Positions 24,670 through 41,293 of a stretch of 64,000 bases of DNA are shown here, piece by piece. Numbering within the stretch: the first letter of the stretch is position 1; every line of letters begins with the position of its first letter. Source of the stretch: Microlunatus soli (GTDB taxonomy: Bacteria; Actinomycetota; Actinomycetes; Propionibacteriales; Propionibacteriaceae); assembly GCF_900105385.1 (NCBI RefSeq), contig NZ_LT629772.1:1674001-1738000 (forward strand). Reading direction: 5' to 3'. A model generated the notes under the pieces. The model ran no database searches and had not been told where the DNA came from. It saw nothing but the letters and a program-made list of their open reading frames with translations. Position numbers and translations under genes: made by a program.

Positions 24670-24745
24670 TGGCGCCCTCGGTGCGATTCGAACGCACGAC
24701 CTACCGCTTAGGAGGCGGTTGCTCTATCCCCTGAGCTACGAGGGC
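24670..24745 (-). tRNA. tRNA-Arg (anticodon CCU)
   Basis: On the minus strand the cloverleaf closes: acceptor GCCCTCG with CGAGGGC, D-arm starting TAGCTCAGGGGATAGAGC, anticodon stem ACCGC/GCGGT around loop CTCCTAA (anticodon CCT, reads AGG), T-arm GTGCGTTCGAATCGCAC, discriminator G and encoded CCA at 24670-24672. 76 nt including CCA. Confidence 0.95.
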
Positions 24746-34844: not shown

Positions 34845-35711
34845 TCAGTTGCTGTCGAGCAGGGCCAGCAGGCGCGCCACTTCGACGGCGACCGCCTCCC
34901 GGGCCGGGCCGAGATACTTCCGGCTGTCCACCATCGAGGCGTTCTCGGTGAGCAGCCCGCGGACGACATCGGTGAACACCACGTTCAGATGGGTGGCGAT
35001 GTTGACCTTGGTGATCCCGGCCCGGACCGCGCGGGCGATCTCGTCGTCGGGGACTCCCGAGGAGCCATGCAGCACCAGTGGTACGCCGACCACCCCAGCC
35101 AACTGTGAGATCAGGTCCAGATCGAGTGCGGCGGTCCGGGTGGTCATCGCGTGCGAGGAGCCGACGGCGACCGCCAAGGCGTCCACTCCGGTGGCCTCGA
35201 CGAACGCGGTGGCCTCGGCCGGATCGGTACGGGCTCCCGGCGCGTGGACGCCGTCCTTGCCGCCGACCTCGCCCAATTCCGCTTCGACGTCGATCCCGGC
35301 GGACCGGCAGCGGCGGACGACATCGGCGGTGGCCGCGAGATTGGCGTCGTAGTCCAGCGCGCTGGCGTCGTACATCACCGAGCCGAACCCGTCGCGGCCG
35401 GCCGCCTTCTCGGCTCGGGTGATCGCGATCGCCTCGTCGACCAGAGCGTCGTCGGTGGCATGGTCCAGGTGCACGACGACCGGGACGGTCGCGGTTCGCG
35501 CGATGGACAGGGTGGCCAAGGCGATCGGCTCCAGGCCGCGGTGATACTTCACTGCGTTCTGGGACAACTGCAGGACGACCGGCAGCCCGGCTTCCTCGGC
35601 ACCGGCAACGTGCGCCTCGGCATGCTCGATGCTGAACACGTTGAACGCCCCGACGCCGCGGCCGTCGGCAGCTGCGCGGCCGATCAGGTCGGTCAGTCTG
35701 GCCAGTGTCAC
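34845..35711 (-). CDS. Class II ketose-bisphosphate aldolase (tagatose-1,6-bisphosphate aldolase-like)
   Basis: A 288-residue zinc aldolase. Zinc ligands in VVHLDHATDD (residues 80-88) and VAVGSSHAM/VPLVLHGSSGVPDDEI; GAFNVFSIEH near the N terminus. It cleaves tagatose- or fructose-1,6-bisphosphate into DHAP and glyceraldehyde 3-phosphate. In this operon with a SIS isomerase and a deacetylase it most likely plays the AgaY/KbaY role. GTG 35711 overlaps the nagA-like stop (GTGA) and has GGAGG 7 bp upstream; an ATG at 35726 is less likely. Confidence 0.88.
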   Translation of the reverse strand: MTLARLTDLIGRAAADGRGVGAFNVFSIEHAEAHVAGAEEAGLPVVLQLSQNAVKYHRGLEPIALATLSIARTATVPVVVHLDHATDDALVDEAIAITRAEKAAGRDGFGSVMYDASALDYDANLAATADVVRRCRSAGIDVEAELGEVGGKDGVHAPGARTDPAEATAFVEATGVDALAVAVGSSHAMTTRTAALDLDLISQLAGVVGVPLVLHGSSGVPDDEIARAVRAGITKVNIATHLNVVFTDVVRGLLTENASMVDSRKYLGPAREAVAVEVARLLALLDSN

Positions 35712-36898
35712 TGACGGTCCTCCCATTGTCCGGCGGCCATCACCGCGTGCAGATTTCCTTGATCATCGACGACCACCAGATCGGCTCGACGGCCCGGCTC
35801 GACGGTGCCGACGGAATCCAGCCGATGGGTCCGAGCCGGAGTCGTCGCCGCCATCGCGGCGACGTCAGTGATCGACAGCCCCAGCGTCTGCACGGCATAA
35901 CCGAACGCAGCCTGCATGGTCAGCGTCGACCCGGCGATCGAGCCGACGCTGCCGTCGGCAGTACGCAGCCGGGCGACCCCGGCCTCGACGGCCACCTCCA
36001 GGTCACCGAGCCGGTAGTCACCGTCGTCCATTCCGGTCGCGACCATCGCGTCGGTGACCATCGCCACCCGGTCCGGCCCGGCGGCCGCGACCGCCATCGC
36101 CAGCACCTCCGGATGCAGGTGCACGCCATCCATGATCAACTCGACGGTGACCCGCGGATCGGTGAGCAGTAGCGGGATCGGCCCCGGGTGACGGTGATGG
36201 ATCGGCGGCATCGCGTTGAACAGATGGGTGGCGACCCGAGCACCGGCATCGACCGCCGCAGCGACGATCCGGTCGTCGGCGTCGGTGTGCCCGATCGCCA
36301 CCGCGACGCCGTTGTCGACGAAGCGGCTGATCGCCTCCGGCGCGCCCGGCAACTCGGGTGCGATCGTGATCATGGACAGTCGACCGTCGGCAGCGGTGAG
36401 GATCCGGTCGACGGCCTCGGGTTCCGGATGTCGCAACAGGCGCGGATCGTGGGCGCCACGTCGTTCCGGTGACAGGAACGGACCCTCGGCGTGGATGCCG
36501 GCGATCTCTCCGGCAGCGACGAGTGGCCCGAGAGTTCTCAGTTGATCTTCGATCCGGGTCAGCTCGGCGGTGACCAGGCTGGCGAAGATGCTGGTGGCGC
36601 CGTGCCGGCGGGCGAACGCGGCGACGGCGCGGATGTCGTCACTGTCGGTGCTGCCGAGATCGCGTCCGGCACCGCCGTGGGTATGGGTGTCGACGAAGCC
36701 CGGCAGCACCCATCCGTCGATCTTCTCGATCGGCTCACCCGACTCGAGATCGTGATCGGTGAAGGATCGGACCTCGGTGATGGTGTCGCCGTCGATCACC
36801 ACCACGCCGTCGGTCAGCGTCCCGGTCGGAGTCACCAGATGTGCACACCGCAAGCGGATCCGAGCCGTCGACCCGGTTGACTGCTCGGCCATGATCAT
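35708..36898 (-). CDS. nagA: N-acetylhexosamine-6-phosphate deacetylase (NagA/AgaA family)
   Basis: A 396-residue amidohydrolase removing acetate from GlcNAc-6-P or GalNAc-6-P. Metal site GFVDTHTHGGAGRD (HTHGG, residues 72-76), IHAEGPFLSPERRGAHDP with the conserved Glu, GHTDAD, THLFNAMPPIHHRHPG and VTDAMVATG (catalytic Asp). It starts in the stop of the ROK gene (ATGA at 36898; ATG 36892 is a second possibility) and overlaps the aldolase. The aldolase and SIS context suggests GalNAc specificity, but sequence does not decide. Confidence 0.92.
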   Translation of the reverse strand: MIMAEQSTGSTARIRLRCAHLVTPTGTLTDGVVVIDGDTITEVRSFTDHDLESGEPIEKIDGWVLPGFVDTHTHGGAGRDLGSTDSDDIRAVAAFARRHGATSIFASLVTAELTRIEDQLRTLGPLVAAGEIAGIHAEGPFLSPERRGAHDPRLLRHPEPEAVDRILTAADGRLSMITIAPELPGAPEAISRFVDNGVAVAIGHTDADDRIVAAAVDAGARVATHLFNAMPPIHHRHPGPIPLLLTDPRVTVELIMDGVHLHPEVLAMAVAAAGPDRVAMVTDAMVATGMDDGDYRLGDLEVAVEAGVARLRTADGSVGSIAGSTLTMQAAFGYAVQTLGLSITDVAAMAATTPARTHRLDSVGTVEPGRRADLVVVDDQGNLHAVMAAGQWEDRQ

Positions 36899-37878
36899 CT
36901 GCCTTCCGGTCGGCCCGGGTCGGTCGACGAGTCGTTCTCCTCCGCCTGCCGCCAGCCCAGCAGCCCGGCACCGATCAGTCCTGCCTGACTACCGAAGACC
37001 GAGGTGATCAAGGTCGGTCGGCGTTGGAAGCTCAGTCGCCGGTCGAACTCGGATTCGATCTGCCCGAAGAGCAGGTCGGCGGCGCCGGAGAGGCCACCGC
37101 CGACGACGATCATCTCCGGACCCAACAGAGTCAGGGCCATCGTGAACGCCTCGGCCAGCGCACGGCCGGCGATCTCGAACGCCGCGAGCGAGGCGGGGTC
37201 CCCGCCTCGCGCTGCGACCGCGATCTGCTCGGCGGTCGGCGGCGCCGTCTCCCCGGTCAGCTGGGCGTAGTTGCGGACCACGCCGGAGGCCGATGCGACG
37301 ATCTCCAGACACCCGATCCGGCCACAGGCGCACACCTGGTCACCGGCAGCCGGCACCGACACGTGGCCGAGCTCGCCGGCGTACCCGTCGGCTTCCAACA
37401 ACCGGCCGTCGACCACGGCCGCAGCAGCGATCCCGGTGCCGAGCGGGACGAAGATCAGATTGGAGACGCCCTTGCCGGCCCCCAGCTGCCATTCGGCCAG
37501 GCCGGCAGTCCGGACGTCGTGCCCGATCGCACCCGGCAGCCCGAGCCGGTCGGTCAACGGTGCAGCCACCTCGATCTGGGACCAGCCGACATTCGGCGCG
37601 GCGATCACGGTGCCGGCGACGGCGTCGATGATGCCCGGCACGATCACCCCGAAGGCGGTGACGCTGCCGCCGATGTCGGTAGCACCGGCCGCGGCCAGCT
37701 CGGCGATCTGGTCGCCGAGCCAGTCGACGGTGCCTCGGCCGTCATCATCGGCTCCGGCGGTGATCTTGGTCGGCACCCGCTGCTCGGCCCGCACCGTACC
37801 GGTCCGGTCGATCAAGCCGAGTTTGGTGAAGGTGCCACCAAGATCAACAGCAGCGACCAGCTCGGCGGTCGTCGTCAT
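36895..37878 (-). CDS. ROK family sugar kinase
   Basis: A 327-residue ROK kinase. ATP loop AAVDLGGTFTKLGLID; catalytic Asp in IGHDVRTAGLAEWQLG; zinc site GHVSVPAAGDQVCACGRIGCLE (His plus three Cys). The probable substrate is an N-acetylhexosamine taken up unphosphorylated, giving the 6-phosphate used by the next gene. ATG 37878 lies 9 bp after AGGAGG; ATG 37887 abuts it. Confidence 0.9.
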   Translation of the reverse strand: MTTTAELVAAVDLGGTFTKLGLIDRTGTVRAEQRVPTKITAGADDDGRGTVDWLGDQIAELAAAGATDIGGSVTAFGVIVPGIIDAVAGTVIAAPNVGWSQIEVAAPLTDRLGLPGAIGHDVRTAGLAEWQLGAGKGVSNLIFVPLGTGIAAAAVVDGRLLEADGYAGELGHVSVPAAGDQVCACGRIGCLEIVASASGVVRNYAQLTGETAPPTAEQIAVAARGGDPASLAAFEIAGRALAEAFTMALTLLGPEMIVVGGGLSGAADLLFGQIESEFDRRLSFQRRPTLITSVFGSQAGLIGAGLLGWRQAEENDSSTDPGRPEGR

Positions 37879-37921
37879 CGCGCCCATCCTCCTGGCGTCC
37901 TCCCCCGCGTCGTGGTGACGG

Positions 37922-38821
37922 TCAGGACAGCACGACCGAACGGGTCAGGTTGCGCGGGGTGTCCGGATCGCCACCGAGCTGCAGTGCCCGGGCCACCGCG
38001 ACCCGCTGTGCGAGCACCAGATCGACCATTCCGTCAAGATCATGATCGACGAACTCGGCGCCGGTCGCCGCCACCTGGTCGGCCAGACCCTGCGGCGCCT
38101 TGCCGAACATCCAGGTCAACCGTCCCGGCTGTGCGACGCTGATCGGGCCGTGCCGATACTCCATCGCCGAATACGCTTCGGCCCAACTGGACGACGTCTC
38201 ACGGAACTTCAGTGCCGCTTCGTTGGCGATACCGATGGTCCAGCCGGCGCCGAGGAAGCTGACCTGCTCGGCGGCGGCGTGGGCCGGCGGCAGCTCGGCG
38301 GTGGTCGCCTCGCTGCACGCTTCGACGATGCCGTCCGGCACCAGCCCGTAGGCCTGTCGGAACAGCATCATCGCGGTGGTCGCGAAGCGCGTCTGCACCA
38401 CCGAGCGCTCGTCGGCGAAGGACAGATCGACGATCTCGTCCGCGGCGTCGACCACCGGGGTGGACAGGTCCGCGGTCAAGGACACCGTCGGCGTCTTGCC
38501 ACGGAGCCCGTTCAGCAACTCGATGATCTCGGTCGTGGTGCCGGATCGGGTGATGGTGACGACCCGGTCGTAGCCCCGTTCGAGCGGGGCCTCGGTGGCG
38601 GTGAAGGCGTCGGACTCACCGAGGCCGGCCGATTCGCGCCAGGAGGCGATCACCTGACTGACGAACCAGGACGTGCCGCAGCCGACGAATGCGATACGTT
38701 CGCCGGGCTTGCCGAGCTGCCCGGCGACCCGGCCGGCGAGCTCGATGCCGCGGGCCCAGGTCTCGGGCTGGGAAGCGATTTCGGCCGTGACGTGCTGCCC
38801 GGCATCCGACGCAGTGCTCAC
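37922..38821 (-). CDS. SIS-domain sugar isomerase (AgaS-like galactosamine-6-phosphate deaminase/isomerase)
   Basis: About 299 residues, two SIS domains: FVGCGTSWFVSQVIA with TITRSGTTTEI in the first (phosphosugar-binding Ser/Thr loops), and FLGAGWTIGIANEAALKFRETSSSWAEAYSAMEYRHGP in the second, typical of GlmS-C/AgaS proteins. No glutaminase domain. It probably converts GalN-6-P (or GlcN-6-P) to the ketose phosphate plus ammonia. GTG 38821 has GGAG 6 bp upstream; ATG 38833 is an alternative. First gene of the four-gene operon. Confidence 0.87.
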   Translation of the reverse strand: MSTASDAGQHVTAEIASQPETWARGIELAGRVAGQLGKPGERIAFVGCGTSWFVSQVIASWRESAGLGESDAFTATEAPLERGYDRVVTITRSGTTTEIIELLNGLRGKTPTVSLTADLSTPVVDAADEIVDLSFADERSVVQTRFATTAMMLFRQAYGLVPDGIVEACSEATTAELPPAHAAAEQVSFLGAGWTIGIANEAALKFRETSSSWAEAYSAMEYRHGPISVAQPGRLTWMFGKAPQGLADQVAATGAEFVDHDLDGMVDLVLAQRVAVARALQLGGDPDTPRNLTRSVVLS

Positions 38822-38869
38822 CGTGATCTCCATCTGCGAGAAGAGGGGCCCGAAGGGCTGATATTTGCG

Positions 38870-38929
38870 TGTTTGCTACTCAAACAAGCAGATATGAACA
38901 TATCATGCTGGAAACGCCCACACGGGCGT
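38870..38929. promoter_or_regulatory. Operator cluster between the amino-sugar operon and deoR
   Basis: Three palindromes stand in the divergent spacer: TGTTTG-CTACT-CAAACA (38870-38886), GATATG-AA-CATATC (38891-38904) and ACGCCC-ACAC-GGGCGT (38914-38929). The first two, AT-rich and near both promoters, are good candidates for the adjacent DeoR protein; the third could be an mRNA hairpin in the deoR leader. Confidence 0.55.
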
Positions 38930-38976
38930 CGCTCTGATCTTCTCGCCATGAGGGATCGAACAGGAGGCCCACCCCG

Positions 38977-39747
38977 ATGACCCGAGCCGAGCGATTGACC
39001 GCCCTCCTCGAGCGCTTGGTCGACCACGGACGGATCGACGTCGAGCAGTCGGCAGAGTTCTTCGGGGTGTCCGCGGCCACCATCCGGCGCGACCTTGATC
39101 ATCTGGCCGACCAGCAGTTGCTGTCCCGTACACACGGTGGTGCGGTGCCCAATTCGACGAGTTACGACCTCCCGCTGCGCTACAAGTCCAGCTCGCATGC
39201 CGAGGCCAAGACCCGGATCGCCGAACGCGCGGTGGAGATGCTGTGGCCCGGCTGCACCGTCGCGCTCAACGGCGGCACCACCACCGTGGAGATCGCCCGC
39301 ACCATCCCGACCTCGGCAGCACTGCACAACGGCGTCACGATCCTGACCAATGCGATCAACATCGCCACCGAGCTGACCGTCCGGCCGTTCATCAAGATCG
39401 TCGTCTGCGGTGGTGTGGCCCGGCCGCAGAGCTATGAACTGGTCGGATCTCTGGCCGCGGACACGCTCAGCCAGCTCACCCCCGACATCTGCTTCCTCGG
39501 CGCGACCGGGATCGACGCCGACGCCGGCGTCAGCACCGGGGACGAGGCCGAGGCCGCCATCAACCGGATCATGGTGACCCGCGCCAAGCAGACCATCGTC
39601 GTGGTGGACGCGACCAAATTCGGTGAGATCGGCTTCTCCCGGATCTGCCAGCTGGACGAGGTCGCCGCGGTCCTCACCGACAGCGACGCCGACCCCGACC
39701 AGGTCAAGCGGATGCGCAAGAACGGCGTCGAGGTCATCCTCGCCTGA
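38977..39747 (+). CDS. DeoR/GlpR family transcriptional regulator
   Basis: A 256-residue sugar-phosphate-sensing repressor. HTH RLTALLERLVDHGRIDVEQ with FGVSAATIRRDLDHLADQQLLSRTHGGA (DeoR signature), then the isomerase-like sensor domain with LNGGTTTVEIAR and CFLGATGIDADAGVSTGDEAEA. It probably represses the divergent amino-sugar operon and releases on a sugar phosphate. AGGAGG is 9 bp before ATG 38977. Confidence 0.93.
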   Translation: MTRAERLTALLERLVDHGRIDVEQSAEFFGVSAATIRRDLDHLADQQLLSRTHGGAVPNSTSYDLPLRYKSSSHAEAKTRIAERAVEMLWPGCTVALNGGTTTVEIARTIPTSAALHNGVTILTNAINIATELTVRPFIKIVVCGGVARPQSYELVGSLAADTLSQLTPDICFLGATGIDADAGVSTGDEAEAAINRIMVTRAKQTIVVVDATKFGEIGFSRICQLDEVAAVLTDSDADPDQVKRMRKNGVEVILA

Positions 39748-40013: not shown

Positions 40014-40042
40014 TTGACCGGCAGAGCGGCGCGACCTACCGT
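40014..40042 (+). promoter_or_regulatory. Promoter of a stand-alone small RNA
   Basis: TTGACC (-35, 40014-40019), 17-bp spacer, TACCGT (-10, 40037-40042). Transcription would start near 40049, only about 5 nt before the extended Shine-Dalgarno at 40054. Confidence 0.6.
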
Positions 40043-40074
40043 TGATCACACACGGAAAGGAGGTGGTCCGAAGA

Positions 40075-40113
40075 ATGATTGCTTATCGGACATGTGAGGT
40101 GACGGCTAGCTAG
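40075..40113 (+). CDS. 12-residue leader peptide
   Basis: ATG-initiated peptide MIAYRTCEVTAS, 11 nt after the core GGAGG of an unusually extended Shine-Dalgarno. Too short to be an enzyme; if translated it is a leader or sensing peptide. I have an unverified memory of similar short ORFs behind the same hyper-Shine-Dalgarno in other actinobacterial intergenic regions. Confidence 0.45.
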   Translation: MIAYRTCEVTAS

Positions 40114-40381
40114 CCGCTGCTAACGATTCAGCTGGTCTGGATCACTGGCCGAGCGGCCGGCGAATCCACAGCCGCACACCCGAACCCGCGAGCGCCGGAG
40201 TTGTCCCCCGGCCGACGGACCCACCACCTCCCCGCGAGGACCGTTCTCCCTAAGTGAGCGGTTTGGGATCGTCGCAAGCTCGCGGGTTTGTCCGTTCCTG
40301 GGACCGACCGCGAAGCAGATCCTCGGATGCAGAGCCTGGTACGCCTTCGGCTCCGGAGCAGCGCTCGAATCCCGGGCCTGC

Positions 40382-40423
40382 TAGCCCGGGCCTCCTAGCC
40401 CAGAACTCCTAGCCCGGACCTCG
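40382..40423. repeat. 14-bp tandem repeat, three units
   Basis: Units CTAGCCCGGGCCTC (40382-40395), CTAGCCCAGAACTC (40396-40409) and CTAGCCCGGACCTC (40410-40423), preceded by a partial CCCGGGCCTG. The first unit forms a hairpin with the partial copy. Confidence 0.8.
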
Positions 40424-40504
40424 TCGGAAGCTCAGACGTCCGCAGCAGCCCGACCTCCGCTGAGCGCGTCCGCCGGCGTTGACGATCCAGTGATCCCCCG
40501 CTGA

Positions 40505-41293
40505 TCAGTCCACAGCCAGTTCCTCCGGTAGCCGTCCTCGTCCGTCGGCGACCGGGATCGCGGCCAGCAGCCGTTTGGTGTAGGCGTCCGCCGGCTCGCG
40601 CCAGACCTGCTCGGTCGGTCCGAGCTCGACGATCCGGCCGGCGCGCATCACCGCCACGCGATCGGCGATCAACCGGACCACGGCGAGGTCGTGGCTGATG
40701 AACAGCATCGACGCGCCGGCGGCCAGGGCGACCTCTCGCATCAGGCTGGCGATCCTCGCCTGGAGGGAGGCGTCCAGCGAGGCGATCGGCTCGTCGCCGA
40801 TCAGCAGTGTCGGTCCGGCGGCCATCGCCCGCGCAATCGCGATCCGTTGCCGTTGCCCGCCGGAGAACTCATGCGGGAACCGGGCACCGGCATCGGCCGG
40901 CAGCTCGACCTGGTCGAGCAACTCGGCCACCGACGGCGCCGCACCGGGATTGATCCGTCGACCGTCCTGGAGTTGATCACGCACCCTGCGGCGCGGATTG
41001 AGTGAGGCGTACGGATTCTGGAACACCATCTGGATCCGCCTCAGCTCGGCTGCCCGGGTCCGCAGACCGAGCCTGCCGATCGGCCGATCGTCATAGCGCA
41101 CCCGGCCGGCGGACAGCGGCACCAGACCGCAGATCGCCTTGGCCAGTGTCGATTTGCCGCAGCCCGACTCACCGACCAGACCGACGACCTCACCGGCCGC
41201 CACCTGCAGATCGACGCCGTCGACGGCAAGCAGTCGCTGACCGCCGGGCAATCGATAACTGACACCGACGTCATCCAACTGCAGCGTGCTCAC
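40505..41293 (-). CDS. ABC transporter ATPase, DppF/OppF type
   Basis: A 262-residue ATPase: Walker A GESGCGKST, Q-loop FQNPYASLNPR, signature FSGGQRQR, Walker B LLIGDEPIASLD, H-loop SHD. Gly in place of the usual Leu or Val before the Walker B Asp is a small variation. It lacks the Cys-rich tail of the DppDF fusion at 27961. GTG 41293 overlaps the stop of the next ATPase (GTGA). Last gene of the second ABC operon. Confidence 0.93.
   Translation of the reverse strand: MSTLQLDDVGVSYRLPGGQRLLAVDGVDLQVAAGEVVGLVGESGCGKSTLAKAICGLVPLSAGRVRYDDRPIGRLGLRTRAAELRRIQMVFQNPYASLNPRRRVRDQLQDGRRINPGAAPSVAELLDQVELPADAGARFPHEFSGGQRQRIAIARAMAAGPTLLIGDEPIASLDASLQARIASLMREVALAAGASMLFISHDLAVVRLIADRVAVMRAGRIVELGPTEQVWREPADAYTKRLLAAIPVADGRGRLPEELAVD

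Follow-up and report, generated by a model that had tools for sequence, protein, structure and literature searches.

The plus-strand RNA locus at 40048–40295 of the 64,000-nucleotide stretch of Microlunatus soli DNA analysed here (the window) is, by its sequence, a new member of the known, unexplained Ms_IGR-5 family (RF02471) and is predicted to be a stand-alone, structured and translated RNA. Comparison of its homologues indicates that selection acts on a reading frame, or on translation as such, and apparently not on the first residues of the peptide, and the covariation found supports helices P1 and P3 and a pseudoknot, P4, none of which is in the structure printed by Rfam. With about even confidence, we propose that the Ms_IGR-5 RNA may be a ribosome-responsive switch or a ribosome sink, which would capture ribosomes and be refolded by their translation. 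The locus has the following features.

40014–40042, plus strand: promoter, read in the sequence; -35 box TTGACC at 40014–40019, 17-nt spacer, -10 box TACCGT at 40037–40042.
40048–40295, plus strand: predicted transcript; start at about 40048–40050, end at about 40295 inferred from the terminal stem.
40049–40052, plus strand: 5' strand of P1, CACA, pairing with UGUG at 40093–40096.
40054–40069, plus strand: hyper-Shine–Dalgarno (hyper-SD) segment SD1, GGAAAGGAGGTGGTCC, complementary to the whole 16S 3' tail.
40075–40113, plus strand: mini-ORF of 12 codons, ATG to TAG, MIAYRTCEVTAS; the stop TAG lies inside CGGCTAGCTAGCCG at 40103–40116.
40088–40092, plus strand: 5' strand of pseudoknot P4, GGACA, pairing with UGUCC at 40202–40206.
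40096–40101, plus strand: SD2 (GAGGTG), within the ORF; the stop codon starts 15 nt after its first base.
40098–40106, plus strand: 5' strand of P3, GGUGACGGC; covariation at j+8 and j+10.
40138–40145, plus strand: TGGATCAC, within the hairpin that follows the ORF; similar to the 16S tail, candidate for pairing with the GAATCC motif or SD1.
40162–40167, plus strand: GAATCC motif, before the 3' strand of P3; motif and downstream ACC found by regular expression in 208 of 245 distinct homologues.
40171–40180, plus strand: 3' strand of P3, GCCGCACACC; in the window GGUG/CACC and GGC/GCC with an internal loop (loop read by eye).
40183–40193, plus strand: 5' arm of the terminal stem, from sequence and congener comparison.
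40202–40206, plus strand: 3' strand of P4, UGUCC, from the N-pair statistics.
40223–40231, plus strand: anti-SD ACCACCTCC, between the terminal-stem arms; lineage-specific.
40278–40289, plus strand: 3' arm of the terminal stem, then GTCC; pairs with 40183–40193, probable terminator (predicted).

The Rfam covariance model of RF02471 matched positions 40048–40249 over its full length (model positions 1–184) at 68.7 bits, the gathering score being 45 (E = 4.1e-13 in the search of the 64-kb window); the match contains several pairs that are non-standard relative to the Rfam consensus structure and is the single one in the whole 6.73-Mb genome. The only other Rfam match at the gathering threshold in the window was a tRNA gene at 24673–24745 on the minus strand. 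An earlier, sequence-only reading of this DNA had suggested similar elements in other actinobacteria; this was right, and the elements are those of RF02471. The Rfam entry describes Ms_IGR-5 as an actinobacterial sRNA and gives no function. The Streptomyces lividans RNA is reported as validated by RNA-seq (PMC8079986), that of S. avermitilis is listed as an sRNA transcription unit (PMC8780764), and ribosome footprints are reported on the homologues of Mycobacterium abscessus and M. smegmatis, with the caveat that RNPs co-isolated with ribosomes can footprint noncoding RNAs too (PMC4974804). The passages of these three open papers that name the family hold no proposal for its function, and the table of M. 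avium sRNAs in PMC3774663 has no entry between the homologues of Rv0812 and Rv0813c.

The promoter TTGACC-N17-TACCGT, noticed already in the sequence-only reading, is present, and its arrangement of TTG and TANNNT recurred upstream of 155 of 203 homologues in our first actinobacterial set (0 in one shuffle) and of 17 of the 41 Zixibacteria-phylum homologues (2 in one shuffle); among 39 divergent homologues both boxes were found once (0 in one shuffle) and the -10 box alone in 19. The strong hairpins of that reading (arms at 40183–40193 and 40278–40288) are there as well, and the 3' arm could be made out by eye in 14 of 20 congeners, the window counted. Folded as a single sequence, the window RNA is more stable than its shuffled versions by only 1.6 standard deviations. 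Upstream on the same strand, a gene that by eye encodes a DeoR-type regulator ends at 39747; the genes at 35708–39747, which by eye resemble those for N-acetylglucosamine-6-phosphate deacetylase, a ROK kinase, a SIS-domain sugar isomerase and a DeoR regulator, are perhaps an amino-sugar cluster. The next likely gene downstream, ABC-transporter ATPase-like by eye, occupies 40505–41293 on the minus strand, and we recognised no same-strand gene just downstream of the RNA, in agreement with the earlier remark that none follows.

Among 396 genomes of the window's phylum, the RF02471 model matched 70 at E up to 0.001 and 35 above the gathering score. A model of the 5' domain, R1, built from 81 nonredundant sequences, matched 149 of them, with one match each in 147, and gave no match in the other 247 under strict filters and with some genomes incomplete. 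In a pattern scan of named genomes, which required the SD2 letters and listed at least 120 loci, nearly all named homologues among the matches listed were Actinomycetota, and the matches listed included two Zixibacteria metagenome-assembled genomes. In the phylum of one of these, the 5'-domain model matched 48 of 132 genomes, once in each and with E down to 2e-13; Rfam's own model passed its gathering threshold in four of seven loci tested there, so the extension to a second phylum is not an artefact of R1. Closer to the window, the RNA was found in all 20 genus members (window included), in 7 of 25 other family members and in 29 of 32 other members of the order. Given the many genomes with no match (the 247 of 396, and 18 of the 25 family members of other genera), the RNA is in these dispensable, lost or too divergent. 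The master table leaves out L255, a second copy of the window, and L291, which had no regular-expression match, and 280 homologues were reduced to 245 by removing those cut short or identical in the 5' domain. Viral contigs gave no match to one strict pattern; the plasmids gave one weak Nocardia farcinica match for the window RNA and a 23-nt chance match for a Zixibacteria-phylum RNA. In some control genomes RF02230 and RF01867 matched below their cut-offs, and the RF01867 matches could be 16S-gene antisense. Two other families, sX11 and Hrs13, were rejected as relatives: what they matched, weakly, in L192 was only a hairpin and terminator.

The complementarity of 40054–40069 to the 16S tail, put at 14 of 16 positions in the sequence-only reading, was confirmed against the genome's own 16S 3' end (...GGATCACCTCCTTTCT): 14 positions are Watson–Crick and the remaining two are G.U, so that all 16 can pair, and with the next base the run reaches 17 contiguous pairs. 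We scanned the genome with the pattern AGAAAGGAGGTGRTCC, allowing up to two mismatches and accepting A or G at position 13, and found five places: the antisense of the 16S gene (0 mismatches), the window site (1) and three others (2 each); the reversed pattern gave three. Counted as a strict complement, the window site has two mismatches, the same as the three others. The energy of the 16-nt duplex is -27.8 kcal/mol for SD1 and -24.8, -19.5 and -17.3 kcal/mol for those three, the second-strongest complement among the sites found being ATGAAGGAGGTGATCC in L229 (C1:5683665–5683680, minus strand). With its flank, SD1 reaches -29.8 kcal/mol, and the best of 40 long ORFs of the window, picked by length alone and scored by the minimum over candidate starts, reaches -17.5. 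Across the homologues, the median contiguous run with the common 16S tail, G.U counted, was 17 in the 204 actinobacterial and 16 in the 41 Zixibacteria-phylum members. Measured against the genome's own tail, it was 15–19 bp in all 18 genomes whose tail was read (the window's genome and 17 from 30 tried, of which 11 gave no match and two only fragments); the pairing reached the UUUCU end of the 16S in 16 of the 18 and in none extended beyond it into the 16S precursor. The second letter of the complement, which faces the penultimate C of the 16S, is 100% conserved in both sets, and at position 13 (window 40066) G is kept in 97% of actinobacterial and 88% of Zixibacteria-phylum members, although A would pair perfectly.

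The 12-codon ORF at 40075–40113, with its stop inside CGGCTAGCTAGCCG, is as first described. Of 284 distinct homologues, 255 have a canonical start (ATG, GTG or TTG) at SD distance followed by a stop just beyond SD2, 28 a near-cognate start (CTG, ATT, ATC or ATA) and one, L151, neither. The near-cognate starts, seen in L153, L154, L160, L161, L164, L168, L170, L174–L176, L183, L190, L204, L211, L212, L218 and others, are an unusual choice after an SD of this strength; a connection with IF3-sensitive starts would be a guess. The frame is 7 to 17 codons long, mostly 11 to 15, and has 12 codons in 171 of 283. Canonical ORFs were present in 185 of 204 actinobacterial homologues, compared with 37.2 after shuffling the variable loop, and in 35 of 41 Zixibacteria-phylum homologues, compared with 7.4. 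In the 204 actinobacterial homologues, chosen regardless of ORF, the codon seven before GAG was ATG in 87, TTG in 63 and GTG in 10, with CTG outside the twelve commonest; all four letters are represented at the first position of codon 5 among the 161 twelve-codon members. The 283 ORFs end in TAG (246), TGA (27) or TAA (10), in contrast to the long ORFs of the window, of which 33 of 40 end in TGA, and the stop begins 15 nt after the first base of SD2 in 266, 14 nt in 15 and 17 nt in 2. The constant distance and the frequent use of UAG are in keeping with a part played by termination, but the structure of the RNA might also be what dictates them.

Codons 2–4 showed no sign of purifying selection on the peptide, with 50 synonymous and 278 nonsynonymous single differences against neutral expectations of 71.5 and 256.5 (the pairs are not independent). 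Further on, Glu-Val is encoded in all 199 actinobacterial and 41 Zixibacteria-phylum members that read SD2 in frame 0, and the residue ahead of it varies (R, C, L, S, P, H, E or Y), its codon holding a P1 strand. The invariance of SD2 is partly imposed, as its letters were required when most homologues were collected. In 17 of the 283 members (L173, L178, L179, L182, L295, L299–L308, L325 and L326), SD2 is read in another frame, mostly as GGA GGT instead of GAG GTG, and these are the members with the stop at 14 nt (15 members) or 17 nt (2). In the last codons, RNA pairing imposes too much constraint for selection on the peptide to be judged.

P1 pairs the 5' end of the RNA with four bases, the last of which is the first G of SD2, in a register shifted by 1 nt in the window. 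In the 81 nonredundant 5' domains (alignment A1, 81 of 82 clusters; L112 was left out for broken coordinates, and L069, at a contig edge, from one set of P1 counts), 96.2% of P1 cells were paired and 64 were changed on both sides, and the joint covariation score of P1 and P2 was reached by none of 500 shuffles and by no slid version. In 41 Zixibacteria-phylum sequences, the four P1 pairs were standard in 36, 37, 40 and 31, taking the forms A-U, G-C, C-G and U-A. P1 was fully paired in 34 of 40 divergent members compared with a mean of 6.9 with swapped partners, an agreement biased upward because these were fetched with R1, which contains P1; in two of the 40, L303 and L306, P1 was absent in the fixed register. 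We rejected two other 5' helices: P2 (GGUC of SD1 with GGAC, whose pairs lie one column off in R1) as unproven for lack of covariation, and the 5' helix printed by Rfam (SD1 with GGCUGC), in which none of the cells of the 81 sequences changed on both sides.

P3 joins SD2 and the letters after it to the segment following the GAATCC motif. In the actinobacterial set, position j+8 was paired in 166 of 176 with 43 double changes (7.5 in shuffles) and j+10 in 161 of 176 with 38 (9.9 in shuffles), counts that leave out the 37 of 245 homologues with no GAATCC anchor. In the Zixibacteria-phylum set, the ungapped register gave no standard pair at j+7, and CUG faces CAG across the internal loop in 32 of 32, never varying. 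Several positions of P3b, which surrounds the stop codon, showed covariation in the actinobacterial set, but the U and A of UAG did not. P4 pairs GGACN of the actinobacterial ORF with a downstream NGUCC, and in this set, on which alone it was tested, the N pair was Watson–Crick in 90 of 159 members (17 of 176 were not testable), the shuffled mean being 41.1 and the maximum 61 (0 of 1000). Three of four neighbouring control pairings showed nothing and the fourth, [N]GGAC with GTCC.[N], gave 54 against 37.9 (1 of 1000); the outer P4 pair was weak (49 against 39.1; 32 of 1000). Of 38 members with no GGAC, 20 had an exact 5-nt downstream partner, compared with 5.2 in shuffles, using pairs such as GGATG/CATCC, CGACC/GGTCG and GTGAC/GTCAC.

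The earlier reading had also pointed out ACCACCTCC at 40223–40231, which is present and exactly complementary to the SD core. Five of 20 congeners, the window included, have an anti-SD-like stretch at a comparable place, and a sixth (L264) has one further on; we therefore rejected it as the conserved switch element of the family. Exact complements of SD1 of at least 8 nt were found in 30 of 300 homologues against 9.25 expected, and of at least 9 nt in 14 of 300 against 2.6, uncorrected for relatedness and at differing places, so that such stretches appear to be recurrent in some lineages and not a conserved partner. Of the switch first imagined, in which the RNA binds 30S subunits or senses translation of its peptide, the engagement of ribosomes is supported by the published footprints on homologues, and being translated is supported by the conservation of SD, start and stop in relatives; the anti-SD as partner and the peptide as what is sensed fall away, neither the anti-SD pairing nor codons 2–4 being conserved. 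A translation-dependent switch would likely work through a different structure, the covarying P1, P3, P3b and P4 that overlap the ORF.

From the conservation of the family, its helices and its frame, we infer ribosome capture, mutual exclusion of fold and ribosome, and a switch between the two. SD1 would pair with the full 16S 3' tail and so capture a 30S subunit, and the ribosome would then read the short frame, with no particular peptide to make, melting P4, P1 and P3 on its way. When it arrives at the stop codon, about 8 nt would separate SD2 from the P-site codon, a distance that should suit anti-SD pairing well, and this renewed pairing should slow the release of the terminating ribosome. 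The second half of the ORF supplies strands to P1, P3 and P3b, and in actinobacteria to P4 as well, so the compact fold and a translating ribosome should exclude each other. With plentiful free ribosomes the RNA would be open and ribosome-bound, and on failure of initiation it would fold. A bolder version, to our minds possible but rather doubtful, is an ancient class of RNAs in at least two phyla whose function is being translated: a binder of the full 16S tail would load ribosomes on a frame for a meaningless peptide, SD2 would hold the terminating ribosome, and the presence of ribosomes would toggle a pseudoknotted fold through which free 30S subunits are reported or limited; the CC2171-type RNAs of Alphaproteobacteria may work alike.

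The locus could instead encode a trans-acting sRNA that regulates mRNAs by base pairing, its SD-like part being incidental. Such a gene would fit the S. avermitilis listing as an sRNA transcription unit, and it is expected to have neighbourhoods that differ among loci, as they do in those looked at (by eye, on crude gene calls): pabC-like and nitrobindin-like genes in M. colombiense (L039), nitrobindin-like ones also in L038 and L076, MsrA-like and RNase Z-like in Micromonospora (L059), and Rrf2-like and exonuclease III-like in L149. We consider it unlikely, as it leaves the conserved start, stop and open frame unexplained. An RNA of dual-function or mRNA type, with a product of roughly 12 residues that might for example be regulatory, would account for an ORF conserved across two phyla and for the Glu-Val common to all frame-0 members; the dipeptide is encoded by the SD2 letters that the search required, the residue before it varies over a P1 strand, SD2 is out of this frame in 17 of 283 ORFs, and codons 2–4 evolve with no purifying selection, so we rate this as somewhat less probable still.

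The reach of the pairing to the UUUCU end and the fully conserved letter opposite the penultimate C would also suit an antisense to the 16S tail that serves 16S 3'-end maturation or surveillance by a route other than translation. Such an RNA would not need the ORF, and in none of the 18 genomes does the paired run go beyond UUUCU into the precursor; we regard it as improbable, a little below the peptide product. The short ORF and hairpins resemble a leader-peptide attenuator, and a cis-acting leader of a neighbouring gene was already disfavoured: the likely gene that follows lies on the minus strand and the neighbours differ among loci, which makes this reading very improbable indeed. The ribosome-responsive switch or sink that we prefer turns the comparative evidence into a specific hypothesis for Ms_IGR-5, in which translation and not the peptide is selected; if true, bacteria would own a dedicated RNA for monitoring or absorbing initiating ribosomes. 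The analysis also revises the printed 5' structure of Ms_IGR-5 and extends its range to a second phylum, and in open PubMed Central papers we found no prior account of selection on the frame but not the peptide, of the P1/P3/P4 fold or of the second phylum.

Among known systems, the closest is Ms_IGR-5 as described by Rfam, with which the window RNA shares the 5' end, the SD, GUGAGGUG and the downstream motif; it differs in that the Rfam structure is without P1, P3 and P4 (P3b is printed), and in the second phylum in which we found the family. In leader-peptide attenuators, a short translated ORF overlaps RNA helices and the position of the ribosome sets the fold. The window RNA resembles them in its ORF, predicted to be translated and overlapping helices, and differs in that no cis-controlled gene was recognised downstream. 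RNA polymerase is the partner of 6S RNA, which imitates a promoter; the likeness to such decoys lies in a small RNA that would mimic the natural ligand of a core machine, whereas the target here would be the 30S subunit and the RNA has a frame predicted to be translated. The Caulobacter sRNA CC2171 (RF01867) has near its 5' end the consensus GAAAGGAGGUGAUCCAGUG, a full complement of the 16S tail, followed by GUG. Its model (cut-off 75 bits) gave no match in the window's genome at E up to 0.1 and aligned weakly to two Zixibacteria-phylum members (L205:1499–1647 and L193:509–580, E 0.008 and 0.13). The resemblance may go no further than the 16S complement that both have, and CC2171 is another hyper-SD RNA, perhaps a convergent one; if RNAs of its type work alike, hyper-SD RNAs would be a general bacterial device.
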